A stretch of 64,000 bases of DNA. It comes from Centroberyx gerrardi (taxonomy: Eukaryota; Chordata; Actinopteri; Beryciformes; Berycidae). Of the stretch, positions 4,479 to 51,868 are shown piece by piece. The notes under the pieces were generated by a model. That model worked only from the letters and a program-made list of their open reading frames with translations. It made no database searches and had not been told where the DNA came from. Within the stretch, counting starts at the first letter, position 1, and the number at the start of each line of letters is the position of its first letter. The translations under genes and the position numbers were made by a program. The stretch lies in the NCBI RefSeq assembly GCF_048128805.1, contig NC_135999.1:20690949-20754948 (forward strand), given 5' to 3'.

Positions 4479-4479
<1 letters not shown>

Positions 4480-4540
<61 letters not shown>

Positions 4541-8565: not shown

Positions 8566-11500
8566 CTAGACAGCTACTGGATCCACGAGGGCCGGAGTAG
8601 CCACTGGTGTAGGAGAGGGAGATGCTTTGCCTTTGTAGCCCAGTGACAGGATGTGTTTCTGGAGGTGTGCGATCCAGTCCTCTTGAATAGACAGAGGTCC
8701 GTGAAACACTTCCTCACAGAACCTGAGCAACAGAAGGACAGACAGCGGTATTTTATTCGATTTATCTGGAGCTATACTTTTCAATCTGCTGATCTAGTAC
8801 AGCAATTTCTCATTAGTTTCTTAATTAAATGAGGGTTTCTGTACAAATGAATAATGATCTTTGTAAAAGGCACAAGTGGGAAAACCCCCAAACACTGCTT
8901 TTATTTGCAAGTTCCAATATGCTTTGATTGAATACAAATGCAATGAGGGAGTCTTATTTTTTTATTCTAGAAGAGACTGACCTGCACTTGAGGGAATAGA
9001 CTTTGCCCACTAGCTTGACCAGGGGGGTAAGTGGCGGCTTGGGCAGCAGAGCAGGGATGTTCCCAGTCCGTGGTGGCTGCTGGGAGTTGTTGTCCTGGTT
9101 TTCTGCCCCTGTAGGCACTAAGCGTTTTGGTGGATAGAACCCTGAAAACACAAGAGAGAGAGGTGATACAGAGATAAGCAGAAAAATAGAGAATGTGTTT
9201 ATCTGTTACAGGATGTTCATGTCCATCTCTTACCCCTTGGGGAGCGCACCCCGAGGTCACCGCGGACTGCCTGCATGTGTGTGTGGCCCCTCTCCATCCG
9301 CGGTCGTTCCTGAGCTGCTCTGAATGACCCACCGGTGACCCCCAGCTCCTCCCTGCCCACCCTGTGCTCCGGCTGCAGCCCCGAAGGCTTCAGGCTACCG
9401 CCAGGCACAGAGTCCGAGTCTGTGGATAGAGAGGGCGAAGGGGCAGCTCTCTGGGACTGGAAGACAATGCGTAGAGATTAGGATTTACATTACTTAACAC
9501 ACTGCTCATGTGCACCGAAATGTGAAGAACAACAACAGAGGATAATGGGAACTTTTTATGGGTAAAAAGTCAGAAGAATGACCATTCTCCTGCATAGACT
9601 TTAGCTTGGCAGTTCAAGGAACAGTACTTGTTCGTTACTAAAATAGAGCAAGGCCAACCTTCTTGATGTAGAGGTCTCCCATTCGATAGCGTTTGGTTAT
9701 TTCTGCCACCTTGGCAGGCTCCTTTTGGATCCACTCGCTGAGGAATTCGATAGGCGAGTTCGTCGCCCCTTCTGTCTTCCACTCCGTCACACCCAGCTGT
9801 CTGAGGTGGGCCCGCGCATGGCTGGCCAGGGCCTTGCGGTTGTCGAAGTCGAACCCACAGAGCTCACAGGACGTGTCTGATACCATGGGTGAAGAGAAGG
9901 AGAAGTATACATATAGAATATATTATCAGAATAACTGTAGATATTTTCATTGGAAATACACTTTTAAAGCAGTCTGTAAATAAATGACTTAAAGCATATT
10001 ATAAAACTTTAACAATTTAACAATGTTCACAGTCTATATATGTCACTCTGGCTGCAGAGAGTGGGGTTAAAATTTATCATCAATCTATGCTGTTCAATGC
10101 ATGCCAGGAGTTATTTTGTGATGAAGTGTTGTAACATACTTTTTTGGTGTACCCATATACCTCAACTTGCCTCATCCACTTCTACCTCATTTAGTGATTT
10201 GTTACATTTCCCAGAATGCTTTTCAACAACCCCCAGAGAACGTGCCTGAACTATTTGCATTCAGTGCATGCAGGTGGCGAAAACAATAGCGATAGCATAG
10301 TAGCAGCAAGAGAGTGAGAGAATGAGTTTTCCAGTTGAGAAAAAGTGAATCACACCCCTTACTCAAAACACACATCTTGTGGCTGCATTGCATTCTGGTC
10401 TACCGCGGCTACTGTTGGTGGAGAAACTGGTCTATCTGCCTCTTCTACAATGGATTTCTCCCTGTATGATTGTTGAATATCAGTGCAAAATGGTGGCTCT
10501 GGAAAGAAGCCCTTGCTATTTCATTTTGATCATGTTTTAGATGGTTGAAATTTTTCTGCTATCAAACTCTATTTTATCTGTACTTTAGTGTGGAAATATC
10601 TCAACGTGATGTCATGGCATCTATGTTTGGCCAGTTATCTGTGGGAATAAGAAAAATACACCACCAAACAACAAAATGAGCCCAGACATACAAGGTACAT
10701 CATCACCAACAGCTGTTTGGATTTTTCCTTTACCAGAGAACAACTGCTGTATCACACAATTTTCCTACAATGGAAAGTGACACAAATAGCCTAGCTAAAA
10801 CTCTAGGTGCTTTGCAGTGGTGTTAATGGCTTACCAGTATGTGAAGCCCCACTCTTGCCAGAGGGGGATTTCTCTTTCAGGGAAAAATCCAGGGGTGCAG
10901 TATAGGACTTGGTGGCTGGATCCCCCGGCAGGAGGCTGTCCAGCGACCTCCTGGAGCCCTGAGAGGCCCACACAGTCTTGCCTGATGCTGAATCTGCACT
11001 GAACACCGACTCCTTTTTGACTTTTTGACCATGTATCATGAACTCTTTAAGGAGGTCAATCGGTGATGTTTTGATTGACCAGGTGAGGCCAAGCTGGCGC
11101 AGATGGGCACGGACGTGGCACGACAGGGCCTTGCGACTGTCAAAGAACTGGCCACAGAAGTCGCAAAGGACGACTGGAAGGGGTTCTACGTCGGAGGATG
11201 ACACTAAGAAATGGGGGGAGGAAGGAAGGTTAGGAGGGTAGGAGATCAAAACTTTCATACATACATTACTGTGCAAAAGTCTTAGGCACCCTAGATTTTT
11301 TATATAAATTTTATCTTCGATGTTTATCCTATTTATTTGTTTTCTACATTAGTGTGTCAGTAGACTGCTCTTTACAGTAAATGTTCTTATATTTAGAAAC
11401 TTTTCATTTCATTATTTTTGAAAGCATCTTCGCATCACCTACTTTTGCACAGTAGTGTACATACATACATAAACCAACAAAACTAACACATGAATAAATA

Positions 11501-13746
11501 AACAAATGCAAAATAGCAAGGTTATGTCATAGTTACTGAGTGTATAAATTAAGAATGAATTGAACTGAAGCCAGCCATAACATTGTAAAGGTACCAAACA
11601 ATTACGGCACATATTACAGTCAAACCCTAAGCAATTCTGAGTTATGGCTGCCTGCTTTACCTGTACTGAGAGAGGCGGGGTTAACGGCAAGACTAGGCAA
11701 CCTCTGAGGGGAGGCGCTGCTGCTACTGCTGCATCCTTGCGTTGGAATAGACATCTCAATCTCCATGGGCTCAGGCTTGGGCTTCCTGTGCAGGGGGTCC
11801 ACTGCTAGCCGAAAGCCTTTCTTAGCCTTGGGGGCCCGGTTGACAGAGGCGAGAGGGGGCTGAGTGTACTTTGCAGGGGGAGGAGAGAGGGATGGGGAGG
11901 GGAATGGAGATAGGGACGGGGATGGGGCTGGTGGTGGAGCTGGAGCTGGAGCTGGAGCTGGGGGTGGAGCTGGAGATGGTGCTGCAGATGAGTTGGTGGT
12001 AGTGGTTTTTTTGTGGGGCTGTATGCCAGGCAACACGCCACTGCTGACCAGCTCCTGGATAGTGTCGATAGCAGAGCATTTCCCCATCATGTCAACCACC
12101 CCCATCTGACGTAGGTGGGACCGCGAGTGGCTGCCCAGGCCTTTCCGATTCTCAAACTCCTCCCCACACAGGATACAGGTAAACTCCTCTGACGCTTTAG
12201 CTCGTTTACTGGGGGGAGACCGGAGAGGGGTGGAGGAGAGGGGTTCTTTGGACACGGGTGGAGGGGACAGATGAGAGGGGCGTTTGGTGGAGGATTTAGG
12301 GCGGCTCTGTAAGTCGAACGGCTCCTGCTGCTCGCTGCTAATGGGCTTGAGGTCCTCGGCCTCCATGATCTTGTAAAGGAATTCGATGGGGCTACCCTTG
12401 GTGTCACTCTCTGCTAAACCAATCTGGCGCAGATGGGCACGGGCATGACTGGACAGGCCCTTGCGTGTCTCGTACCAGGAGCCACAAAGTTGGCACACAT
12501 GAACCTCGTCGTCGGTGTGTGAGGCTGCAAGAATGTAGAAAAGAAGAGAGGGGAAGGGAGGAAGGGGTGAGAAAATGTATATTGAACTTTACTGAAAGGA
12601 TAAACCCCTTGAGATGAATCATCTCATTTTCAAGAGGGTCCCTGAAACACAAACACATCTACAGTACATCAAAACAAAACATACAAATACACATAAACAC
12701 ATACAAATATGTACTAAGTGTAGATATGTAAATGTCCTAAGTCAAAAGTGGACTATTCAGTGATGTTTACTTCATTAAAACAAAAATGTTATATCAGCAA
12801 TTATCTGGCATCAACAGCCATGTAGCTGCATGAGGTATGTGAAAGTTCTGTTCATACAGTGGTATTAAAGTTTAGTAAAACATATCTTTCATGCACATAC
12901 AGCTACTCCACCCCTCGTTAGTTTCAACATTTCTTTAACACAAATGTTCAGAGTTCAGCCATACCTAAGGTGAGAGGGGCATCGGTTTCCTGCGGTGCCC
13001 AGAGCGGCTTGGCTGTGGCCTGGTGAAGCCCTACGGAGGATGAGTTGCTGTCTTCACTTATTCTAGACTCAGACGCTCTAAGAGTCGAGGAGGACGAGGG
13101 GAGGAGGGACATTGACTCTTTCAAGCTGGCTGGCAATCCCTGAGAAGCTGTCCTCTGTGGGGTCGTTGTGACTTTACCCCCTGCTTTAGAGGAGGAGCCC
13201 CTGTCCTGTGGGACTGACAGTCTCCTGGACTCCTGCTGGCCTGTTTTTTTGGGAGGGGTGGGCACAGATGCAGGGGGGGCTGTTTTGAAGTTGGGGAGGG
13301 AGCCATCTCTCTCCTGGATGATCTGGTAGAGCAGTTCTATGGGAGCTCCGCTGCTTTCCGACAGCGTCACACCGAGCTGCCGTAGATGCAGGCGGGCGTG
13401 GCTGGAGAGCCCCCGTCGAGTCTCGAAGTACGTTCCACAGACCTCACACATGACCGGCTGTGGGGTGACTGTGGGAGAGTTCAGAGGGAAAGTTGTCATT
13501 ACAAATGGCAGAGAAACTGAGCGCGAGAGGTTGAGAAACTGAGACAGTGTCAACCTAGTTGTGAAAAAACAAAGGTATGAAGCTGTAATGTGCCAGACAC
13601 TAATTATGTTGACATTCAAGCTCTTGCCATTTGCTTGGTCATCAACTCCCTGTTTGCCAGCAATATAGCATAATAACAAATAATATAGTTAGCTTGTTTA
13701 TAAGTGTCCCCTCAACCCCACCATCTCTCTTACTGATTGGATCCAT
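8566..13746 (-). CDS. wiz: WIZ-like widely interspaced zinc finger protein
   Basis: Eight coding exons on the minus strand: 13746-13734, 13468-12965, 12524-11661, 11203-10835, 9876-9659, 9456-9234, 9141-8982 and 8722-8566. They join in phase to 835 aa. Six C2H2 fingers are spread along the protein: C12/C15/H28/H32, then starting near residues 183, 289, 474 and 587, and a last one C783/C786/H803/H807. Fingers 1-5 share the pattern CxxCG...RK/RxL.SH.R.HLRQ.G, typical of WIZ. WIZ is a nuclear adaptor of the G9a/GLP H3K9 methyltransferases, which it is known to bind through its C-terminal finger. It also recruits CtBP; PFDLQ (241-245) and PLDFS (564-568) fit CtBP docking motifs. A Pro-Ala run near 11930-11990 is repeat-derived. 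The start, MDPI, is the first ATG in the exon after an intron acceptor; longer upstream isoforms cannot be excluded. The donor after 9659 (GTTGGC) is weak. Confidence 0.88.
11263..11462. repeat. Short inverted-repeat element in wiz intron
   Basis: The ends read ACTGTGCAAAAGT on the left and ACTTTTGCACAGT on the right, a near-perfect inverted pair around about 170 bases of AT-rich sequence. The left end continues CTTAGGCACC, wording I associate with a common vertebrate/fish dispersed repeat. It lies in the intron between the third and fourth coding exons of wiz and has no coding capacity. Confidence 0.6.
11925..11995. repeat. GGAGCT hexamer-like repeat inside wiz coding exon
   Basis: On the plus strand GGAGCTGGAGCTGGAGCTGG and variants recur. 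Read on the minus strand in the wiz frame this gives an alternating Pro-Ala stretch followed by Ser-Pro repeats, between the third finger and the basic C-terminal part of that exon. Such a tract is likely disordered and variable in length between individuals or species. Confidence 0.8.
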
Positions 13747-14149: not shown

Positions 14150-14395
14150 GGCAGCGTATTGATGGGGGAAAAAATCGGCTCAGTATCTCGTTATAACGAG
14201 AAACCTTTCTCGTTATAACGAGATCTTTTTCTCGTTATAACAAGATATTTTCACGTTATAATGACATCTTTTCTCGTTATTACGACATACCAACTTATCT
14301 CATTATAACGAGAAACGTTTCTCGTTATAATGAGATACCAACGTATCTGAACCGAAACAGCCGATTTTTTCCCACTGTGGCATCAATACGCTGCC
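14150..14395. mobile_element. Inverted-repeat DNA element with internal TTATAA palindromes
   Basis: The left end (from 14150) reads GGCAGCGTATTGATG then GGGAAAAAATCGGCT. The right end (to 14395) carries the reverse complement, AGCCGATTTTTTCCC then CATCAATACGCTGCC. Between them, variants of the self-complementary word CTCGTTATAACGAG occur about six times. There is no coding capacity. It lies in the wiz 5' intron. This looks like a miniature inverted-repeat transposon; the superfamily is undetermined and no clean target-site duplication was identified. Confidence 0.8.
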
Positions 14396-16195: not shown

Positions 16196-19100
16196 ATGTC
16201 TTCCGGAAATGCAAAGATTGGCTTCCCTGCCCCAGCCTTCAAAGCCACAGCTGTAGTGGACGGGCAGTTTAAGGACATCCAGCTGTCAGACTACAAAGGT
16301 AACAGGCTGTTTTCCCATAGACTGTAGAAGCAGATGTATTTAAACCTTTGTCACAACCTCTGTGATTTCCTCAGTCTCTGACTACGAGTGATTTATATAC
16401 AGTAGACACCCTCTTCATGATTGCATAATGGACATAAACGTATCAACAGCTTTCTTTAGTTTTAAGACATGGCAAATGTGGGTTGACCAAAATCAACACT
16501 CCCATCTTCCCCTCTGTGCTCTTCAGGGAAGTACGTGGTCTTCTTCTTCTACCCTCTGGACTTCACGTTCGTGTGCCCCACTGAGATTGTGGCTTTCAGC
16601 GACAGGGCAGAGGAGTTCCGCAAAATTGACTGCGAGGTCATCGCCGCCTCCACAGACTCTCACTTCAGTCACTTGGCCTGGTGAGACTCCATGATTGTTT
16701 TAAACGAAAGGAAGATGACTTGAGTTTGTTTATTATAAATGGATCCACACCTCAGTCATGGGGTTTTCGATGTGGTGGAACCATGATTATCTCATCTCAT
16801 GTTCTTGATTGTAATCTTGGCTATACACATCATTTTAAAGATGTGCTTTTTTCAATAGTTGATGGTACATGTTTCATTTCTGTTTGCTCTATCCAGTTTC
16901 TAATTGTAATCTGTTTATAATTTCCAATTAAAGGGTAAATTGTAAGGGGTTTTAGCAGATCTCAGGCAACACCCACCCCAGCTTATCTCCCCTCACTCTG
17001 CCCCCCTGCATAGTATTGATAAGTTATCTGGGTCCTGATATACTGAGAGGAGCTAACGGTCACTTGGCTCAATCAAACTTTACTTTCTAGAAGGAATCAT
17101 CCGAGACAGTTGTGGGTAATGAATCGGGACCTGTCCAATTCTGGGCATAGTCTGTAAGTTTAATTATGTACAGTTTGATTTTAAACATTTTGTGGGAATA
17201 TTTCCTATTGGACCACCTGCTGTTGACCAATGTCTTAATATTTCTTTCTGGGCTTCAAGGAGGCATCTTTACTTTTTTGCCCCTCTGTGGTAATATAAGA
17301 TGGAAGTCTCGAAGTATCCTAGAATTTGTCACGGAGTACCATTTTAAGACTAGTTTTGTGTCTGATTTATTATTTCACCTGAATATTATAGCCAAATTTG
17401 TCTACAAAATACCACTACATGCACTTGGTCTAGGTAGACGGGTTTTCATTTTTCAAGCACTTAAAATGTATATGAGGCAATGAAAGACTAATATCGTCTT
17501 ATAATGTTGGCACCCTGTATGTGCTCCCCTGTGCTGAATGGGTTTTTAAATTGGATAAAATGAACAACTATTGATGACAACATTCATTCATTTCTTTCTT
17601 TTTTCCCATGTAGGATCAATACACCAAGGAAGCAGGGAGGTCTGGGTCCCATGAACATCCCCCTGGTGGCAGACCTCACCCAGTCCATCTCCAGAGACTA
17701 CGGTGTCCTGAAGGAGGGAGACGGCATCGCATACAGGTCAGGCAGACTGTGTGTGTGGTCCTATGGAATCAGGATTTGTTTTTCCCAAATGGCTTGTTGT
17801 GCTCATATTGAAGTACACACCTTTTAATGGTATCATCTAGGCAGCCAAGGCCCATGTTACCACAGTGTTACTGAGACAGATAATTATACTTATTGAACCT
17901 CGGCCACAGTGTATCATCAGAAGCAACTCAGCCGTGGGCAGGTGTCGCTCATCTAGGCATGAATACAGACACAACTTCCAACACACAGCACTGTAATTTA
18001 TAAAGGGGAATGGGCTATTAAGCACATTAAGTGTGTTTGTTTGTTTCTTTTTTTATCACCCAATATTTTCCTATTTGCCCCCAAACCTCTCAATTCCACA
18101 TTTATTTCAATTTCTTTGGGGCGCATGTACTTTTGCCAAAAGTACATAGTACATGCTTATATACAGCTTATATACACCTTTTTCATATCATGTCAGGCAG
18201 AAGACTACTAAACCCATTTCCGTAGTTTACAATTGTGCCTCAAATGGGTATGGAAAGGGGATGTTGCAAACTGATGAGATTGATGCTATCAAAGAATTCA
18301 ATGAAATACAGTAGTGTCACCAGGCGTGGGTGGGTCTTACGCAGGGAAAGTTAACACTTGAGTGTAAATCTGATAAATCCAATCCGCTTCTCTGGTTAAG
18401 AAAACAATGTGGTCACACTGGAACAGAGCACTAAAAAATTCTACATAAGCAGCCCAAATGATGGATAAAATGTCATCGCCAGTTCCACGTTTAAGATAAT
18501 ACTGTTACTTTCATTAATCAAGACTGTGGCAAGTTTTGATCTGAAGGACAATTGTGCACTGTCAAGTGGCAGCTAGTTTGCAAGCAAGATGAACCAGTTG
18601 GTTTGGTAGAATGTAAATACTCACTCAGCTGTAGGTACTAGTTACCCAGAGTGAGCTTTGAAGGTTTGGAGAGGGTGAATGGATGTTAACACTTATTCTC
18701 TGATCTTGAAACAATCCTGTTTGCAGGCAGCATACACTTTAGCTTGGCATGCCAATTCACAAATGTATGTGTCCATAACATGAGATCATGAATGACGTGA
18801 CCACAAAGCAACATGTATTTAGCATCCAAATTTGCCAGCCTGCTATTTAAGTCGGTAAATAACAGTTTTGGAGCTTTGCACACCCAGTGCAGCCTCCAGT
18901 TTCAGGACACAAAGTACCCTGCCACACGACTGTTATCCATGAGCAGGAACATCCTCTGCTGGCTCAGACTTCAACCTCTCGATTTGTCCCTCTCAGGGGT
19001 CTGTTTGTGATTGATGACAAGGGCATTTTGAGGCAGATCACAATCAATGACTTGCCTGTGGGCCGCTCCGTGGACGAGACCCTGCGTCTGGTCCAGGCCT

Positions 19101-19792
19101 TCCAGCACACTGACAAACATGGCGAGGGTGAGTGAAATCTGAACACATCTATATGTTTTGTGGGTTTTTGTCCCCCTCCATACTAGAGCTGAAGAATTAA
19201 TTGAAAAAAAATCAAAATCGCAATATGAACTTCTGCAATTTCCAAAGCGCAGAGGCTGCAATTATTTGCTTAAGAGAGAGGGGCGTCCAAACTGGATTTC
19301 TAAATGAATCAAGTACAGCGTTGGTGAAATATTGGTGTCATACTCAATCTCAGTAAATCCTTTCTTTAAACAATTTTGAAAGAAAAACTTGTGATGATAT
19401 GAATTGCTTTAAATTGCAATATATCGCAATTCGATTTTTTGTCAATATCTTTAAGCCCTACTCCAACCAGAGAGTAAAATGTATCAGTTAATTGAACCTA
19501 CCACTCCAAGATTATATGCTTAAACTCCCTCAATACAAATGAGGTGGTTGGGGGTTTTGAATTGCCTTAGAGGGGTCAGGTAGATTGTGTACAAGATCTT
19601 GTATTATCAGTTTATGCTGCTGTAGACTGTATCCTCAAGGTATGTGAAGTTAAATTGTGTGTCATTGACGGCCGGTGGTGGGCTTTGTCCCGTCTCCCTC
19701 TCCATACAGTGTGCCCTGCTGGCTGGAAACCAGGTAGCGACACCATCATCCCCGACGTCCAGAAGAGCAAAGAGTTCTTCTCCAAGCAGTAA
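16196..19792 (+). CDS. prdx2: Peroxiredoxin-2 (typical 2-Cys peroxiredoxin)
   Basis: Five coding exons, 16196-16298, 16527-16680, 17614-17736, 18997-19127 and 19710-19792, join in phase to 197 aa, the usual length. The enzyme reduces hydrogen peroxide and alkyl hydroperoxides in the cytosol, using thioredoxin as reductant, and works as a dimer/decamer. The peroxidatic site FTFVCPTE gives Cys51 and the resolving site EVCPAGW gives Cys172. The GGLG loop of hyperoxidation-sensitive eukaryotic enzymes is at 94-97. The C-terminal motif, Tyr-Phe in mammalian Prdx1/2, reads EFFSKQ here, so Tyr is replaced by Phe. The ATG sits in ACACCATGTC, 18 bases into the exon after a 5' untranslated exon. Prdx2 is preferred over Prdx1 because of its position beside junb. 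Confidence 0.95.
19181..19462. repeat. Degraded inverted-repeat (hAT-like) element in prdx2 intron 4
   Basis: The left end reads AGAGCTGAAGAATTAATTGA then AAAAAATC and CGCAATAT. The right end mirrors it with ATATCGCAATTCGATTTTTT and TTAAGCCCT. The wording resembles the GGGCTGCACGATTAATCG group of fish hAT-like non-autonomous elements. Coding capacity is absent. Confidence 0.55.
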
Positions 19793-20132
19793 ATCTGAAC
19801 ATCTCGTAGACGACTTCGTAACCCTAGCACTTACCTTCAGATGAGAAGTTCCCCTGTGAAGCAGTCTCTTATCGGCGTCTAAGCCCAACCTAACAAATTT
19901 TGAAGTTGTTAGACACAAATCCTTTGTTGTTGCAAGTCTTATGTTTGTATGTCCAGCGACCAGTGGGGCGGCCTCATAGTCTTGAGCACTGAAAGTATAC
20001 TCGTTTTTGTTTCTTTTTCCGGAAAGTGTTGATTATTTTTTACCTTGAGATCATTAATGAATCATTCTACCATCATTATTAAAGCAGTGGGAAATGATGA
20101 CTGACATGTTGGCAGTGTTTTTGTGTCTGACA

Positions 20133-20138
20133 AATAAA
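20133..20138 (+). terminator. prdx2: prdx2 poly(A) signal
   Basis: A canonical AATAAA lies 341 bases after the prdx2 stop codon, in CAAATAAACC. It is the first canonical hexamer after the stop and is followed by a TG-rich stretch near 20155. Confidence 0.75.
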
Positions 20139-20159
20139 CCAAGGTGAAGTACCTTATGT

Positions 20160-20981
20160 TGTGAACTTCATGGATCTCAGTTTGGACCACTAGGCGGCGC
20201 CATGGCACTTCTAAAACTCGCCTTTTGGTATACAGAGTTCAGTCATGTTTGAAATGAACAGGGTGCTTCAGGACCTGGGAGTCTTGAGGCTGCAAGTCTT
20301 GGTTAATGCTGGACTTGCCGTGATGTTGACTCACAGCACAACAGTGACAATACAATTTGACATTGCCAAATACCCCGTTCCGGAAGCCAGGAACTCACTT
20401 AGTTGGAAAGATTTAGTTGTTGGACAGAATCACATGACTGTCCATACTGTAGCTGGTGAGATGGGTTCACTGTCTATTAAGTGAAAAGTTATTCTTATAT
20501 AATCCATAATCCATACTATTGAAATTACACAGAAATGGAACTTCAGGAACCTCTGTCCTGCGCCTCATTTCATTGAAGTGGGTTGATCATGTAAAACCAC
20601 AAGGTACTGGGATATTTAATTGAACATAAGGAAACAAAATGTCTTTACGCTTTTACCAGACAAAACTTCCCTATTTTGATGAAGTTTATATAGATTTTGC
20701 TTGGCCATTTGCTGTGATGTGCTTGGATCCATTACTTAATCTGTGATTGTGTCCATAACATTTAGATCTCAGAGCTTTTGTTAAAACAGATTTTTTTTAA
20801 ATCTCAAATAAGCATTTATCAGACCTAAATCCTACTCTGCAAGTGTGTCTGGAACTTTTTGCAACCATTTTCCTGAAGTAATGCTCTCACGGGTTGTTTT
20901 GGGAAATTGAAAGCAGAGTGGGGAAACTCCCCTGTCCTTTTATAAACCACTCATTGACAAACCTCTTCATTTACACACACA

Positions 20982-21018
<37 letters not shown>

Positions 21019-21060
21019 TGGTGTGAAGGGGAGAGCGCAGCATTTCTGACGGGCAATGTA
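20160..21060. other. prdx2-junb intergenic spacer
   Basis: No gene was recognised. A 79-codon open frame at 20245-20484 starts with ATG but shows no recognisable domain or splice partner. A CA microsatellite occupies about 20977-21016. Confidence 0.5.
20977..21016. repeat. (CA)n microsatellite
   Basis: About 40 bases of CA repeat, interrupted once by AGA near the left end. Confidence 0.95.
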
Positions 21061-21068
21061 GGTGGGAG

Positions 21069-21180
21069 TTCCCGGAACCCTTCTCATGATGTGACGTTTG
21101 GAAGCAAAGTTGACCATATATGGCTTGACGTCCTTACGTCAATAAGGAAACAATCCCACGCTGGGACGTCTCTAACGTCA
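21069..21180 (-). promoter_or_regulatory. junb: junb downstream immediate-early enhancer candidate (STAT, CRE, CArG)
   Basis: About 590 bases downstream of the junb stop lies a dense cluster. It holds a perfect STAT site TTCCCGGAA (21069-21077), CRE-like TGACGTTT (21092-21099) and a perfect CArG box CCATATATGG (21114-21123). CRE variants TGACGTCC (21126-21133) and TTACGTCA (21134-21141) follow, then GGACGTCT (21164-21171) and TAACGTCA (21173-21180). Mouse JunB is known to have an inducible enhancer just downstream of its transcription unit combining a serum response element and CREs; this looks like the fish counterpart. Orientation is given relative to junb. Confidence 0.75.
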
Positions 21181-21763
21181 AGCAACTGTGACTGCTGTAC
21201 AGTTGCTGGCCTGATGGGCCGTCGTTGGCAGATGAAATTACCTTATGTGATTATTTTGTCTACGTTAATTATTTCATCTACAATATTTCCTAATATAATA
21301 CAACTAAGAGGCGACCATTTTTACATAAATATTATAACACCAATAACAAAAGTGAAACCACACCACATTTTTTTCTTAATTGCATTTACTTAAATAGATA
21401 CTGTACAGGTAAAAAAGACATATGCCTATCAGGCTCAGCCTGAAGAACACAAATAACTTACAATAGAATGCATCACAACTGGCAGTTGTCAACGTAAAAT
21501 GTAAACAGGCAAAGCCAAACAGATGACACTTTTAAAAACGTATTCAAAAATGCCCTAAGTGTTTCAGTCTTATGTTCTTATGATTTCTGAGCACTTTTCT
21601 TTTAGTCAAAGAAACCATAATAACCCTCTTCCCTTGGCCTATACAGGCTATTTCCAACGTGAAAACACATTGTTCATTGTCCACGCTGTATTGTTGTCAG
21701 TGCAGTTTCTTTTTTGACAGGTTCTCCAAAGATTGTCCAGTGTTTAAAAAGTGCATTGTTTCT

Positions 21764-22762
21764 TCAATAAGACTTCACCTTGGGCGCCAGCATGAGTTGA
21801 CAGCCACTGCTGACATGTGTCATGACTTTCTGTTTGAGTTGGGCCACCTGTTCCCGCAGTAGGGAAGCAGTGTTGGACAGTCCGGCGTTATCTGTTTTCA
21901 GGACTTTCACCTTGTCCTCCAGACGGGCGATACGCTCCAGCTTGCGCTTCCGGCACTTTGTGGCTGCGACCCGGTTCCTCAGCCGTTTGCGCTCCGCTTT
22001 GATACGCTCCTGGTTCTCCATGTCGATGGGAGACATCGGCGGAGACCCGCTGTCGCTGCTATGCATGTCGGGGACTGTCTGAGGCTCCTCTTTCAACCCG
22101 CCAAAGCGCTGCGGGTGGAGGCCGGCTCCGACCAGCGAGTGCTGGAAGTGGTGAGAGCTGTGCGCAACGGCCTGGGGATGTTGGTGATACTGGTGGTGGG
22201 GCAGGTAGCTGATGGTGGTCGAGGGGTAGCTGGGTGCAGCGGACAGGTTGGGGTTCGGGGTGCAGCTGCTCAAGGTGGTGTACTCGAGAGGCTCTGGCTG
22301 GATGGACGAGCCGAACACCGAAGTGGGTACCGAGCAGCCGACACCACCTGTACCGATGGACACGTTTGGAGGAGCCATCTGGTTCATCTTGTGGAGGTCG
22401 TCCAGTGCTTTAACGAACCCGTCAGCAAAACCCTCTTGTTCCTCTGTGATCCCACGGTTGTACAGGTACTGGGGTACAGGGGTTGGCGTTGTAGTGATGA
22501 CCCCGTTGCTGTTCTGGATTATCAGTCGCTCCAATTCTGGAGAGGCAAGTTTCAGAGAGCCCACGTCCGCTGTCCCCGCTGAATAGAAATCACTCTCGGC
22601 GCGCAGGTGCTGTGACTTGAGGTTTGAGTTCCGATATGAGTCGGAGAAGTTCAAGTTCATATTCTGCTTTAGCAGCTTGTAGTCTGGCAGCGCAGCGCCT
22701 GGATGGCCATAAGCAGAGAGAAACGAGTCGTCATAAAAAGGCTGTTCCATTATTGTGGACAT
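21764..22762 (-). CDS. junb: JunB transcription factor (AP-1 subunit)
   Basis: A single uninterrupted frame of 332 aa, as expected for intronless jun genes. JunB is a nuclear bZIP protein that dimerises with Fos/ATF partners on TGA(G/C)TCA sites and acts as an immediate-early regulator. The N-terminal part has the Jun transactivation motif around [11 protein letters not shown] His/Tyr-rich middle follows, then [20 protein letters not shown] leading into the basic region ([13 protein letters not shown]). The leucine zipper (L-x6-L, about 275-305) and the Jun-type C-terminal tail complete it. The ATG lies in an MSTIMEQPF context; a second in-frame ATG is four codons on. Teleosts usually keep two junb copies (junba, junbb); which one this is cannot be decided here. 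The promoter, the upstream CArG module and the downstream enhancer are listed separately. Confidence 0.95.
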
Positions 22763-23109
22763 ATTTCAAATCAGACAGTCAAATACAAGTGTGCGCTGGA
22801 AAGATCTTGCTTGGACACAAAGTCTTCAGTGTCCCAATTGATTCCCTCTCCAGCACCAAGTCCCGATGTATTATTATACTGAAGATCAAAGTTATCAAAA
22901 ACAGAGCAAAACTTCCAAAATAGTGGAACTGTACTGTACCAAGTCGTCGTTTTGTACCTTTAGGTCGAATCAAAGCGGTGTCCGGTGACTAATTCTGATG
23001 TTTTGATTCCACTCGTGTGTTGCCGTTTCTTTTACGCTCTGCGTCCGAGCTTTACTTTTATTTCCTCTTAAACAAATGCGTATTGGTGGTCGACTGACGC
23101 GCTCTGTGG

Positions 23110-23226
23110 TATTTATACGTCCGGGTCTACTAGCTCACCAACCTGTAAGCGGCTGCCGTTCCAGTGCGCTGATTGGTTATTTCATCTTATCCCCCGCCCC
23201 CTGATGTCACATATTCGATGACGTTG
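23110..23226 (-). promoter_or_regulatory. junb: junb core and proximal promoter
   Basis: On the minus strand a TATAAATA box occupies 23117-23110, so transcription should begin near 23085. That leaves about 320 bases of leader before the ATG. Further upstream come a CCAAT box (23176-23172, in AACCAATC) and a GC box (plus-strand CCCCCGCCCC, 23191-23200). Two CRE-like sites follow, TGATGTCA (23202-23209) and TGACGTTG (23219-23226). This TATA/CCAAT/GC/CRE order is typical of an inducible immediate-early promoter. Confidence 0.8.
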
Positions 23227-23474
23227 TTGCCAGGAACAAGGACTGTAAACAAGACTATCGGTGAAGGAAACTCAATGCAGGTAAACACATAAAACAGCCT
23301 ACCTGTTAAGTGCTTAACCACATTCATAGTCATATTTTAACAAGTCGGTTAAAGTGTGAACCAGACCGCAATGTCGTCCAAAAACAGAAATACTTCAACG
23401 TCATGCTGAAACCTCAAACATCCTTTTTGCTATTTAGCCTCAAGATCACCCGAATCCCATCGATAAGGATATGA

Positions 23475-23526
23475 TGCTGAGTCATGCGATCAAAATTGAT
23501 ATCATTCAGTCCATATATGGGTATCC
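23475..23526 (-). promoter_or_regulatory. junb: Upstream SRE/Ets plus AP-1 module of junb
   Basis: A perfect CArG box CCATATATGG (23511-23520) lies next to GTATCCTGG. On the minus strand this reads CCAGGAT-AC-CCATATATGG. The Ets core CAGGAT, two bases, then the CArG box is the same spacing as in the c-fos serum response element, where Elk/SAP ternary complex factors bind beside SRF. On the other side of the CArG box, 26 bases away, is TGCTGAGTCATGC (23475-23487), an AP-1/Maf-type site. The module sits about 400 bases upstream of the predicted junb start. Confidence 0.65.
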
Positions 23527-24520
23527 TGGCGCACCGGTTCCTCCCTGTGAGGAGCGGGAAGCCAATCCCATCCTGGACCGCTTCCAGGACCGACGAGCCT
23601 CCGGGATGTGGGAGGCGGAGGAGGCGCCCTGCTCCACTCTTTCGCCCCGAGGCAGGGAGAGGAGGGGTAGGTGGTGAGGATGGCGCAAACTCTGGGCATA
23701 ATACAGTGTGATGTGTTCAAAAATGTATTAACTATAATGGTAGTCTGGAAAAGAAAGGCAGTAGGCCTACTTATGCCCAAAGTACCCATACAAGAAAGAA
23801 ATCAGTACTAATCCTATAATAAAAACATTTGGTAGGCTATTGTCCTACTTACCTAGCCTTTAATACTATGATAAATACACAATACCAAGTAGGCTACTAT
23901 AAGCTCACAATATACTCCATTGTGTACTACAGATACATTAAAGAATATTATTGTAGTGGTATCATAAGAGATAAGAAATTAAGAAATAAGGCCCGCGAGC
24001 CTTAATTACAGTTTTTAAAACGTTATCAGTGTCAAAAGTAAGGCTGATCGTACAGTGCTCAATCGGTCTTTTCCCGATTCTCTTCACGAACGGTGCAGTT
24101 GTTTTGAACACGTGTGTCACCACTGGAAATTGTATGCGTCCCTATGGAAACTATGGCAGCGTAAACAAATAGCGGAGTCTAACTCAAGGCATGTATAGCA
24201 TTAAGGACATGTCCCCCGCTCTGAACACCTGTTTGGCAGAAAGACGTCTTTGTCTCCTCTGTATGGTAATGACCTCTGAATCACTCCCCGAGGGGCCATC
24301 CGCCCACGCATGTTCACATCTACTACTTCAACTTTCCCTCCGTCTGCTTATATCCTCAGGTCTGCTATGAATTTGTCTACAATCCCTCCTGAATTTTCCT
24401 GACAAGGGCCTTTTCCACCATTTTTTTTTTTTTTTTTTTAACCTTTTGTAGCAAATGGATTGGAAGGGTCATTTGACTTCATACATTCATACTTCTTGCT
24501 ATCACTCTGAATCTAACTTA

Positions 24521-24948
24521 AAGGAATAGTTCACCCCAAAATGAAAATTCAGTCATTATCTACTCACCTCCATGTCAGTCGAAACACCATTGAAGTTCGT
24601 AGGACCACCAACCACACAGCGAGTTAGCCCCCGTAGTTCCATCTCAGCTTTCTCCCAAACTACTGAAGTTTAACTGAGCCAAAAAAAGCATGAAATGTTC
24701 ATCTAATTTCCTCAAACAGCTCCTACAGAATAATTCAAGTTTTTTGTAGCCAAACAATTGCACTGTGGATCCAAAAGTCAGATATTTACCTACCTGCTCA
24801 GGCTGTTTACAGACATGGACATTTTTTTTTCTTTTTTTTCTTTTTTTTTTAGCTGTAAGAGTTAGGGAACTACAGGTCTAACTCACCGCGTGTTTGGTGG
24901 TCCTATGCACTTCAGTGGAGTTTCGACTGACATGGGGGTGAGTGAATG
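24521..24948. mobile_element. Miniature inverted-repeat element
   Basis: The left end runs AAAGGAATAGTTCACCCC, then CTCACCTCCATGTCAGTCGA, AACACCATTGAAGT and AGGACCACCA. The right end mirrors it with TGGTGGTCCT, ACTTCAGTGGAGTTTCGACT and GACATGGGGGTGAG. The interior is AT-rich with a poly-T/CT run near 24823-24850 and no coding capacity. The left-end wording is of a kind very common in fish genomes. Confidence 0.75.
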
Positions 24949-27069
24949 GGGTTTTCCCCTTATGACCAAGTTGACCTTTGGACCATTGCTATTACCTTTG
25001 TGCTCATGATTGACCTTGTGTGAAATGATAAATCAGGAGCACCAGGTGCATTAGGCCTCATCAAATCTGCTGCATTTGTCTGTGATGTTGTAGCTGCAAT
25101 TCGACCAGATACCTGACGCAACACCAGTCCAGTCCTCTCCACTTCCAGTTTTCGTGAGAGTTGAAGGCTGCAGTTAGGCCAGCTGTCACACAGCGGTCAG
25201 TTTGTACCTCGCCCCTCCCACTGAACCCGTGGCATGATCCGTTGCGCAGCGCTCTTGTCAGTGAGAAACAACAGGAGAAACAGAGAAACAGGAGTAATTT
25301 AAGGGAAACGGAGTAATGCGTTGAATCAGTGGTCAATTCCAGTTTCAGCGGGTGACATCATCCACTCACTGAAGGTCAGCACAATCACTTGCGAGGGATA
25401 TCACATATCTATCACCTCTTATCAGATGTGGTTTGATTATTTCCTTTAGGCTATCACTGCATGACTCTTAAACAACAAACTCTTAGAAGTATTCGGTTTG
25501 ATTGATATTTAGTTTTGTACGTAGATATTCTTATTCTTGAAAAAATGTTTTTATCCAGTCTAATTATGTGATTGAGAATTAACACTCTATACTGTATGTT
25601 TAATATGTTAATTTATATAATTATTTTCTGGATTGACTCAATTGTAATTGGCCACGTAACACTGCTCCCCTCTCTCTTAACTTAAGACTGACAATGAGAC
25701 AAAAGTCTGTTTCATGGCTTACTGTTGCTGTCTCCATTTATACAGTATATCCTATGCAGAAAGTAAACTATTTTATTTCAGTATACTAATGGAATATTTA
25801 CATGTGACATTCCCATTTGAGACCGTTCATTCGCTCTGAGGAGGAAAAAACAATTTCTTGCTCACATGCAGCTCTACATGAGTGCTCGCACACATGCACA
25901 AACCTACACACACGCACATACACAAAAACACAGCCCGGTCACCTCATACACACAATTCCGTCACTGGCTTTGAGCAGAGGGGTAATTCAGCTTGACAGAT
26001 TTCATTTGGCTCTCGAGAAGGTGAAGGAGGAGAAGAGAGACAGGAGGAGAAATAAGGAAAGGGGGTAAAAAAAAAAAAAAAAAGAGAGCAGCAGAGGAGC
26101 CCATAGGTGCAATCAGCCACGGCGGTGAGGATGGCGCCCGTGGCTGAGCCATATAAAGACACTTTTATCTGTTCACTGACTATTAGCACATCGCTGGGTA
26201 CATGACTGCTAGCTGCGCCCAGGAGAGGGATTGAGGGCAGGTGAACTGAGGGAGGAGAGAGAGAGAGGAGGGAGGTAGAGGGATGCAGTTTTACCAACAT
26301 ACAGCCGGAGATAGAAATATTAAATTCCCCACATTTTATAAAGCAAGGATGAGTCTTTTCCAGAGTCAAATATGTCATTTATAAGAAAGTTAACAGAGCG
26401 AACCACACACTTAAACTCATTCAGTAGTGATTAATTCAGTAATAACTTCCAAAAGTATTCATTTAAGCTGAGCTGGCTTTCCAGTAGGTCATAAAAATTT
26501 AGTTAGAGGGCTTTGGATCTTCACCCCAATTTGGGAATTCACCTATTTGGGAACCACTCAGTTCTGCTGATAGTTAACTGATTTAACCACAGTATGAGGT
26601 GTATCCCAAAATCGCTAAATGGATCATAATAATCTAAGCCAGAATTGATTTAATGGGAATAAAAACGGGAAAAAAACATTTCTATACTATGTTTCTAAAC
26701 CATAATGTTCTGTTGCATTTGTATCCACAAAATGAGGCTTTTATGTAATAAGTGAAGGAATCATGATAGTCATGCTGTTCATTCATTTTATTCATTTTTA
26801 TTGAATATTGTGAATATTCACTTGTCACAGTGTGATTTAAACTATCTCTGGTAAAATCGTGTGTTTTGTGCCGGCTATATGCTGATTGCACATTCTCTGT
26901 AATTAGTTCACTGACTTCAAATTTGAGACTTTTGTTAGCAAATGACAAACCAGAAGGAAGCCTGAAAGATCATGATGTTCATTTGGCCTTCATCATGACT
27001 TGAACTCCCTCCTCCCCTCTCGCCTCGCACCACAGCCTCCCCCCTCCCATCCAAACACTCGCTGGGCAC

Positions 27070-34479: not shown

Positions 34480-34790
34480 TAAACACGTTAAATTAGAAAA
34501 CCTGGCTTATTTTTGGGGGATGACTATTCCCCCTAACGATTATTAGATTGCAACAGATGTGTTAGTGTTATCAACAGGTTAGATTTCACAGGGGAGTGTG
34601 ATGCGTCTAAACAACAAATCTAATCCAGCCATCAAGCAGCAGAGGAAGTGAACCTGATATTAAGTTCACTCAGATTTGTCATTAGCTGGCTGCTCAGAGT
34701 CCCTAAATGACGTCAATGCATTTCTTAGCAATTAGATGATGTGTAAATGAGATTGACACACTGACGGAGGTATTGTGTGAGTGTGTTGTG
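34480..34790. promoter_or_regulatory. Candidate conserved non-coding block
   Basis: About 300 bases without simple repeats, containing several ATTA/TAAT cores (ACGATTATTAGATT, CAATTAGATGATG), a TGACGTCA-type CRE (near 34710) and no sustained open frame. It sits between microsatellite-rich stretches, which makes its complexity stand out. Confidence 0.3.
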
Positions 34791-35460: not shown

Positions 35461-35845
35461 ACATCCATCTGTCCTTTCCTCTCCTCTCAACTGCTTCTCT
35501 CTTCTCTTCTCTTCTCTTCTCTTGTCTTCTCCTCTCAACTCCTTTTCTCTTCTCTTCTCTTCTCTTCTCTTCTCTTCTCTTCTCCTCTTCTCCTCTCCTC
35601 TCCTCTCAACTCCTCCTCTCCTCTCCTCTTTCCTCTTCTCTCAACTCCTTTTCTCCTCTTTTCTCCTCTCATCTCTTCTCTTCTCTTGTCTTCTCCTCTC
35701 AACTCCTTTTCTCTTCTCTTCTCTTCTCTTCTCCTCTTCTCCTCTCCTCCCAACTCCTCCTCTCCTATCTTTCCTCTTCTCTCAACTCCTTTTCTCCTCT
35801 TTTCTCCTCTCATCTCCTCTTTCCTCTTCTCTCCATTTCCTCACT
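35461..35845. repeat. Long polypyrimidine (TCTTCTCC)n tract
   Basis: Nearly 400 bases of TC-rich DNA with recurring units such as TCTCTTCTCT and CTCTCAACTCCTTTTCTC. The unit CTCAACTCC recurs about seven times, giving a higher-order period of roughly 50-130 bases. It yields long false frames of Leu/Ser/Phe on one strand and Arg/Glu/Lys on the other. Confidence 0.9.
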
Positions 35846-37386: not shown

Positions 37387-40300
37387 TTTGTTTAGTGGGT
37401 CTCCGGAGCTGCCCAGACCTGAATCCCCTCTCATGACTCAAGAATGTGACTGTGTCTAAAACAGCATCTCATTTTATCTAGAGCTGTTCAGTCTTTTATA
37501 ATATGGGTTGTTGTTTTTTTAATTTGGGTTTTTAATTTAGTTAGTTATACATGAAGAATAGACACAGAATATGTTCCATTTTCAGCAAAAAACATGCTGG
37601 GCAGGAAGCAAGCTCTAAATGTGATCATTAAAAATGATGAAAGACAGAAATGGAATGTGAAAACATTAAGTGCCCACTACACATACAGTACATGCTGTTT
37701 CATCTTCTTTATATCTGGATTCAAACGCTGCTGTGAAACCTTAAGATAAGAAGAAGGCGAATGAGAAAAATGAGAAGAACAAGAACAAGAAGCCATGAGT
37801 CAGTCGGCCTACTTCAGTTGATCTGCCATTAATCAGACGGCCTGTTGATTATGAACAGATATGGCCGGTTGCTGCTCTACCTGAATCTCGATGTGAATCA
37901 GTCCCATCAGCAGGGGAGTTGATAGATAACAGATCCAATGGACATTTCCTCACTGGAGTCAATTAAGATGTCGGCGTGTGTGTGATTGGATTCGGCCCCA
38001 CTGTCTGTGACTCAGGCTCCTGCGTGTGAACTGAACGGGAAACCAGAATCTTTTGGGGGATTGAATCTGTTTTGGGGTTCTATCTGGAGTTAAGGGAGGA
38101 GAGAGAGAGAGAGAGAGAGGGGTGGGGGAGCTTATTCCCACAAGAAGGATTGTTTTGACAATTTTTAGTTTACGGTAAAGTCTTTTCCTGGCATCATTAC
38201 TCTATTGGAAAAAGAAGGATAAAGGTCAAGGTTATAGAGCGCTCAATTACAGACATTCTGCCTGGGCTGATTGTGTGGCTTTTTTGATGTGTGTGTGCAT
38301 GGAATTATTATGTGTGTGCACGTGTGTGTGTGTGTTTTTGTGGTTGTGGCTGTGTTTGTGCGTGCCAAATGTATAGCCTAAATGTTCTCCCCATGAAGAA
38401 CTTATTTGACAAACTATGTTCACATTTACAATTCAATTGAAATAAGGCCCGTGACAGACTTCCCTTATCAAGAACACACTGGTGCGCAGATGAGAGTGAC
38501 GATCAGTGATGGATGCGCTGCCGCGCGCCACAGTGAACAAGTTGTTTTAGTAGCTGTTGAACAAATAGCAGGAGGGGAGATGAAGGAGAGAGCGCCGTCA
38601 AACAACGCTTGACTGAGAAGGCTCAGGAGGTTAAAAGCTCCACGTGGAGACGTTCAAAGGCGGCCCGTCTGAAACTAAAAAGGGCCCATTTAAAACTGCT
38701 CCAGTGACTCACGGCTCCTTCTCCCTGTTTTACGGGAAATGGAATGTGTTTTTATTTCTTCTTTTTTTTTTTTCCCTCCTCCTGGCAGGGTAGAGGAGGG
38801 TCAGGCAGTGGGTTTATGTTTGTCTGTCTGTGTGAATGTTGTGGCGTGTGTGTTTGTTCATGTGTGTATGTGTCTTCTGAAGTCTCCTTGGGGGCAGATA
38901 GCCCTAATTATCGCCTTGGAGCCTAGAGACTTAGCAAAGCCACTCAGACAGAAAGTGCAACTGTGGCTTCTGCAATAAGTCCAGACTATTTACATAACCA
39001 ACGCTGATGGGTTCTAATAATAGCTTCAATCAGATAATAGATCAACTCAGATTTCTAGTTAACGAGTATTTTATGCAAATGCAGGAAAGAACAGAAGCAC
39101 AGGATGAAACCACAGAGCATAACCTTCGATCAGAAAAACACAGAGAAGTGAGCGACTCATTTCCTCTGTGTTTCTGTATTTTATATTAGCAATAATAATG
39201 ACAATAATGATTCTCACTATGAATATGATCATTTTGGATTCTAGCCACCGCTTAAGTCCCTGCTACAAATAAAACAATTAACATCCCCAGTAAGCATCAC
39301 ATTACTTCCTGCTTTATTTCTCAATAGCTCAAGTGTAATCAGAGCTTTTATCTATCCATTTATTACCATCTGGATACTCTCCTTACAGCAATAACTGAAT
39401 AGTCTTGTTCTATTGCCCCGTGGCTGTTGTCAGTCAAACCCATCACCTCTAGCCCAGACTGGCTTCTTTGGAAACTCTTGGCCTATTTCTGCCGCTGTTT
39501 GTCTTGACTGGGGTTTTTCCAGCCTGAGGTGGCTATTTTGGTCAGATAAATACAATGTTGTGGGGGGGTGAGAAGCGAGACTCAGATGAGATCACCTCTC
39601 GGGGCTCCTGAGCAGCAAAACAACAGCAGCAAGACAAGACAAGAACTGCCGTGGATGGAGGCGGAAAATAAAGGCTTGGAAAATTATTGACATCCCGCCC
39701 CGGCTTCAGGTCGCCCCGAGGCGAGGAATCGGGAGGCAACCTTGTCCCACAGTCTCCCGGAGCAAGGGTTGAGACATTTGAAAACATTTGAAACAACAGG
39801 CAAAGTGCTTGTAAAACCAATGAATCAATGTCTGATACTAAGATCCTTACTATGAGGCTTTGTGATTGAACAGCAGCTGAAAGGAGGGGGACGTGGTTAA
39901 TAGCTACTGAGTGTATTTCAAGGCCTTTACCACAGGCAGACCAGACGGGTCTGTGTTTTGTTAGATGATTAGCTGTGTTTGTGTGTGGCTGTGCAGCCAA
40001 GGGAAAATCGAGCTCACGACTTCACATATTTTTTTGGGAGGGGGGGGACATTTTGCAGTGAATTCCATATTTGGGTGGAGAGACTCTATCTGTCTGTCTT
40101 GTTGCCTGACTGTCTGTCTGTCTGTCCTTTTGTCTGTTTATGTGTCTGTCTGTCTGTGTTTAGGAGTGTTTTGACAATGGGAATGGCCGGTGCCACAGAT
40201 ATCTGGCTATCAGTGGGCGTGAATGTGTGTGTGTGTGTGTGTGTTGCCATGTGCACTAATGTCTGTGTGTGTGACAGTGAGTTTATTGCCATGTGGTTGT

Positions 40301-51814: not shown

Positions 51815-51868
<54 letters not shown>

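Follow-up and report, generated by a model that had tools for sequence, protein, structure and literature searches.

A block of STAT, NF-kB, CArG and CRE-like sites downstream of a fish junb gene is a probable counterpart of mouse junb enhancer E

Does the dense group of regulatory sites behind a fish junb gene correspond to the inducible enhancer that lies downstream of the same gene in mouse? The mouse downstream element includes a CRE, and work by Perez-Albuerne (in 1993) and by Brown et al. (in 1995) reportedly concerns, to go by the titles, a downstream enhancer of mouse junb and an APRF(STAT)/NF-kB site downstream of mouse junB, respectively. A downstream CArG box of mouse jun B mediates the serum response (PMC516031). 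According to the available passages of PMC3799436, the mouse enhancer, named E, is ~200 bp long (+2022/+2237), is located about 200 bp downstream of the poly(A) site, and contains four kB sites, three of which contribute. The same passages present E as the principal control of junb induction and as looped to the promoter; in unstimulated dendritic cells the E-promoter loop is already present, LPS is followed by its at least partial relaxation, and Pol II accumulates also at E (PMC3799436). A junb enhancer downstream of the gene is already known in mouse, and what is added here is its probable fish counterpart.

The gene features that frame the block within the window (the whole 64-kb stretch of DNA that was analysed) are as follows.

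18998-19792, + strand: final two exons of a gene for a typical 2-Cys peroxiredoxin, which faces junb tail to tail (Pfam and PDB matches)
21385-21390, - strand: AGTAAA ahead of G/T-rich DNA, a candidate junb poly(A) signal
21764-22762, - strand: junb coding sequence, a single ORF of 332 aa with its stop at the low-coordinate end, 21764 (ORF list and Pfam)
23112-23117, - strand: likely junb TATA box (motif scan)
23172: CCAAT, upstream of the TATA box
23220 and 23398: CRE-like sites, upstream of the TATA box
23478: AP-1 site TGACTCA, upstream of the TATA box
23511-23526, - strand: ETS+CArG site GGATACCCATATATGG, upstream of junb

The ORF matches the Pfam families Jun (2.1e-60) and bZIP_1 (2.2e-17). 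Its best PDB chain is jun-D and, among the matches listed, none is named JunB, so the search leaves the paralogue unsettled. Mouse junb primers +706 and +746 align within the ORF at about 22380-22407. We take the gene to be junb rather than c-jun or jund, an assignment that rests on these two primers and partly on the known sequences of the paralogues. The last peroxiredoxin exon matches Pfam 1-cysPrx_C (5.5e-08) and the penultimate exon has no Pfam match. When the two exons were joined and compared with PDB, peroxiredoxin-1 was closest (139 bits), followed by peroxiredoxin-2 (124 bits), and the sequence leaves the choice between 1 and 2 unsettled; the name prdx2, which we assume, comes from synteny. 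Human JUNB and PRDX2 are presumably arranged tail to tail, and the fish side of this junb/peroxiredoxin arrangement is present.

The preliminary description had placed a STAT site, a CArG box and five CRE-like sites at 21069-21180, some 590 bases beyond the junb stop. Direct reading and a motif scan recovered all of them at these positions, 584-695 nt past the stop; the block occupies 584-700 nt past the stop and so lies downstream within ~1 kb. Two kB sites had been overlooked, one overlapping the STAT palindrome and one at 20920-20932. The sites are listed below.

20920-20932, unstranded: second NF-kB site GGGGAAACTCCCC, with consensus matches at 20921 and 20922 (reading)
21064-21073, unstranded: NF-kB consensus GGGAGTTCCC, overlapping the STAT palindrome (motif scan)
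21069-21077, unstranded: STAT palindrome TTCCCGGAA (direct reading and motif scan)
21092-21099, + strand: CRE-like site TGACGTTT (direct reading and scan)
21114-21123, unstranded: perfect CArG box CCATATATGG, a predicted SRF site (motif scan)
21126-21133, unstranded: CRE-like site TGACGTCC, first pair (direct reading and scan)
21134-21141, unstranded: CRE-like site TTACGTCA, first pair (direct reading and scan)
21164-21171, unstranded: CRE-like site GGACGTCT, second pair, core GACGTC at 21165-21170 (scan)
21173-21180, unstranded: CRE-like site TAACGTCA, second pair (direct reading and scan)

The motif scan found TTCCCGGAA to be the sole TTCCSGGAA in the 64-kb window and one of 18 matches to TTCNNNGAA; the CArG box is one of eight. 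Seven loci, from 8 matches, fit the kB consensus GGGRNWYYCC across the 64 kb, and two of the seven are in or near the block. The second kB site is located 832-844 nt past the junb stop, ~130 bp beyond the block. Adjoining it at 20937-20944 on the - strand is TATAAAAG, which is away from known gene starts and might point to an enhancer RNA or to transcription in antisense. The overlap of STAT and kB sites, together with the second nearby kB site, strengthens the likeness to the mouse element, as two more of its recorded parts are matched.

CpG observed/expected is 0.94 in the block, compared with 0.42 (19793-20900), 0.23 (20900-21060) and 0.46 (21186-21763) in the surrounding segments; the plain CpG count is unexceptional, with 831 of 12775 stepped 125-bp windows holding as many or more. 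Self-comparison of the window with 21020-21259 returned, besides the segment itself, short matches at E values of 0.39 or worse, which rules out a repeat within the 64-kb window as its identity. Rfam gave no match at the gathering threshold across 19500-24500. No AATAAA or ATTAAA is present on the - strand between 20901 and 21766. If AGTAAA at 21385-21390 is used instead, the block would begin ~175-205 nt past the junb 3' end, which would fit the ~200 bp of mouse E; this is a weak indication, as the two strands of the window together hold 63 copies of the hexamer.

Sites two to five of the CRE-like group form two pairs. The first, TTGACGT-CCTT-ACGTCAA (21125-21142), is an inverted repeat whose 7-nt arms match perfectly, and the second, read as GACGT-CTCTA-ACGTC, is a related copy 38-39 bp beyond it: GACGTC-CTTACGTCAA (at 21127) and GACGTCTCTAACGTCAA (at 21165) align with 15 matches, one mismatch and one gap. 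Four of the five sites look like one pair repeated, and because of this 'five CREs' overstates the number of independent inputs; a reading of them as five independent inputs was rejected. None of the five sites of 21069-21180 matches the full CRE palindrome TGACGTCA. The only copy of TGACGTCA in the window is at 34708-34715, with no identified gene near. Jun/ATF dimers could use such CRE-like sites as well as CREB. The strong cAMP/calcium input that had been read from the number of CRE variants is accordingly weakened, given the two related pairs, the lack of a full CRE and the possible use by Jun/ATF.

The clustering of the sites was evaluated by simulation, using 1000 order-3 Markov sequences of 64 kb each, modelled on the window, and a cluster span of 112 bp. 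The window contains 40 merged ACGTC sites, five of them in the block. Four CRE cores within 112 bp occurred in 0/1000 Markov sequences, three cores plus a CArG box in 1/1000, and two cores plus a CArG box in 41/1000. With a STAT site added to the CArG box, three cores were found in 0/1000 and two cores in 1/1000 sequences. An overlap of STAT and kB sites anywhere in 64 kb was present in 14/1000. Dinucleotide shuffles of 21061-21185 never gave five sites (0/20000; the maximum was four, in 2/20000), so the composition of the block does not explain them. When motif triples were permuted on the real window, 0/1500 scored as high as the real set (9.61 at best, against 11.80); addition of kB as a fourth motif moved the real score only to 11.86, and kB contributes little to this statistic. 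ACGTC ranks 21 among all reverse-complement-collapsed 5-mer classes by a naive Poisson tail, and the 20 classes above it peak at 4479-4486, 14186-14189, 35494-35584, 40089-40092 and 51818-51819, peaks that we interpret as microsatellites, tracts of low complexity or an array of palindromes. The segment 14186-14330 is an array of imperfect palindromic units like TCTCGTTATAACGAGA and forms the strongest CpG-containing 5-mer cluster of the window. In all of these cluster statistics the motifs were picked after looking, the CRE sites are partly non-independent, and the scope is one 64-kb window. Within this window, the STAT/CArG/CRE cluster is not chance. A whole fish genome comprises some ten thousand 64-kb windows; since the tests cover one window of many, the argument leans also on the place of the block, directly behind an immediate-early gene whose mouse counterpart has a documented enhancer downstream.

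That place agrees with the place of E. From +2022/+2237, primer +351, and an assumed protein start and 344-aa length, mouse E lies ~668-883 nt past the stop, and the fish block plus the second kB site lie on the same side of junb at a similar distance (584-844 nt). The parts also agree. Both elements have kB sites and a STAT(APRF)/NF-kB site, known on the mouse side from a title; the five fish CRE-like sites correspond to a CRE of the mouse element; and the downstream CArG box at 21114-21123 has its mouse equivalent in PMC516031. The mouse precedent for an inducible downstream element (PMC516031 for the CArG box and, in its available passages, PMC3799436) upholds the place and the CArG-plus-CRE composition put forward in the preliminary description. 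The two differ in that the fish has two kB consensus loci (the first within the block, the other ~130 bp beyond) and the mouse four, and in that the fish CRE pairs look repeated.

A second known system with a similar set of signal inputs in a short stretch at an immediate-early gene is the c-fos promoter, with its SRE, CRE and STAT sites. The fish block differs from it in being downstream of the gene, in adding NF-kB, and in that its CArG box (21114-21123) has no neighbouring ETS core at the fos-type distance. The fos-type arrangement is instead found upstream of fish junb: GGATACCCATATATGG at 23511-23526, the sole GGAW-NN-CArG match in the window, contains a second copy of the CArG box CCATATATGG, and its 2-nt ETS-CArG spacing is the same as in the c-fos SRE. 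Because the junb promoter has its own ETS+CArG site, serum input need not hang on the downstream block alone, and serum may act mainly through a site other than the block.

Direct comparison with mouse letters was attempted through primers. Twenty-seven mouse primers were aligned to 20000-26500 of the window, comprising 26 of the 28 Table 1 junb oligonucleotides (all but +4553 and +4704) and one primer from the 3C section. None of the three primers in or beside E was recovered (scores 18, 18 and 18, at noise level, with best matches outside the block). Of the coding primers only 3/7 mapped to their expected positions, so the alignment had little power and the result for the E primers should be taken as uninformative, not as a negative. 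For primers -1350 and +517 the top match fell in or near the block, at noise level. The letters of the mouse element are absent from the available passages of PMC1553470, PMC10756686, PMC3087454, PMC4503981 and PMC10507257, and also from those of PMC3720722, PMC4359351, PMC4789231 and PMC4023608. By titles and abstract openings, no description of a fish junb downstream enhancer was recognised among the literature matches listed, which is weak evidence of absence.

Taken together, these observations argue that a signal-inducible junb enhancer, the fish counterpart of mouse E, occupies 21061-21185 and probably takes in the kB site at 20920-20932 as well, a reading to which we give a probability of roughly 0.7. 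The block agrees with E in place and parts, from which we infer common ancestry, and it is probably a fish member of a known element type. Working from the mouse, SRF would bind the CArG box at 21114-21123, with TCF or MRTF cofactors as its switch, the CRE pairs would be occupied by CREB/ATF or Jun-ATF dimers, and STAT3-type factors and NF-kB would use the overlapping site at 21064-21077. The block would be held close to the junb promoter, about 2 kb off, by a short chromatin loop, and factor binding would lead to release of paused polymerase at junb, its presumed target gene. Binding, inducibility and looping of this kind in fish are projected from the mouse element. In this scheme the block would integrate signals from growth factors (SRF), from cAMP/calcium or stress (CREB/ATF, Jun-ATF), from cytokines (STAT) and from inflammation (NF-kB). 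Whether the ancestor shared by ray-finned fish and mammals already had a hub for SRF, CREB/ATF, STAT and NF-kB is evenly balanced; under that history the place, the parts and the overlapping STAT/kB site were kept, the intervening DNA underwent turnover, and the fish lineage duplicated its CRE pair.

A genuine junb enhancer could also have been assembled independently in fish, by site turnover and local duplication, rather than inherited. The CRE pairs look duplicated, the primers for mouse E and its flanks find no match (in the low-power alignment described above), and immediate-early genes in general often gather the same motifs; we nevertheless consider independent assembly unlikely, as the fish block shares with the known mouse element the side of the gene, a similar distance, and the same set of STAT/kB, CArG and CRE sites. 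Chance clustering of short motifs chosen post hoc would profit from that choice and from the partial duplication of the sites, but is hardly credible against the results for four CRE cores in 112 bp (0/1000), permuted triples (0/1500) and five sites in block shuffles (0/20000).

Two further explanations assign the block to a transcript. It might be the upstream part of a separate promoter, with TATAAAAG at 20937-20944 (- strand) starting an enhancer RNA or lncRNA towards the peroxiredoxin gene. This motif occurs four times in the 64 kb on the two strands, one of them here beside the kB site, and Pol II accumulation at mouse E, in the available passages of PMC3799436, would fit such a start. 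However, no listed ORF of at least 120 aa overlaps 20000-20937, the Rfam search of 19500-24500 was negative at the gathering threshold, a CA repeat lies between the TATA motif and the block, and the observations also agree with an enhancer that makes RNA; a separate promoter is very improbable. Slightly more remote still is a location of the block inside a long junb 3'UTR, with motifs that are incidental or work at the RNA level. Sequence does not fix the 3' end, given the lack of AATAAA and ATTAAA noted above, but the consensus sites for four classes of DNA-binding factor, several of which are palindromes, the raised CpG and the negative Rfam search all speak against it.

If the counterpart of E is ancestral, the locus would clearly exemplify an enhancer grammar that has persisted in one position behind an immediate-early gene for some 430 million years, and would provide a small, testable junb switch for work on fish regeneration and immunity. 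If it arose independently, the same input logic would have been rebuilt at the same place.

Vertebrate DNA was also sought in wider collections. The JunB protein gave 41 pattern stretches and no relatives in the genome_contigs collection, a DNA pattern gave 7 stretches there, all with bacterial titles, and patterns gave 6 and 6 stretches in viral contigs; these stretches were taken as chance. Elsewhere in the window, 10803-13679 (- strand) contains three ORFs, two of which have Pfam C2H2 fingers, one of them below the curated cut-off, in a pattern that presumably recalls WIZ.
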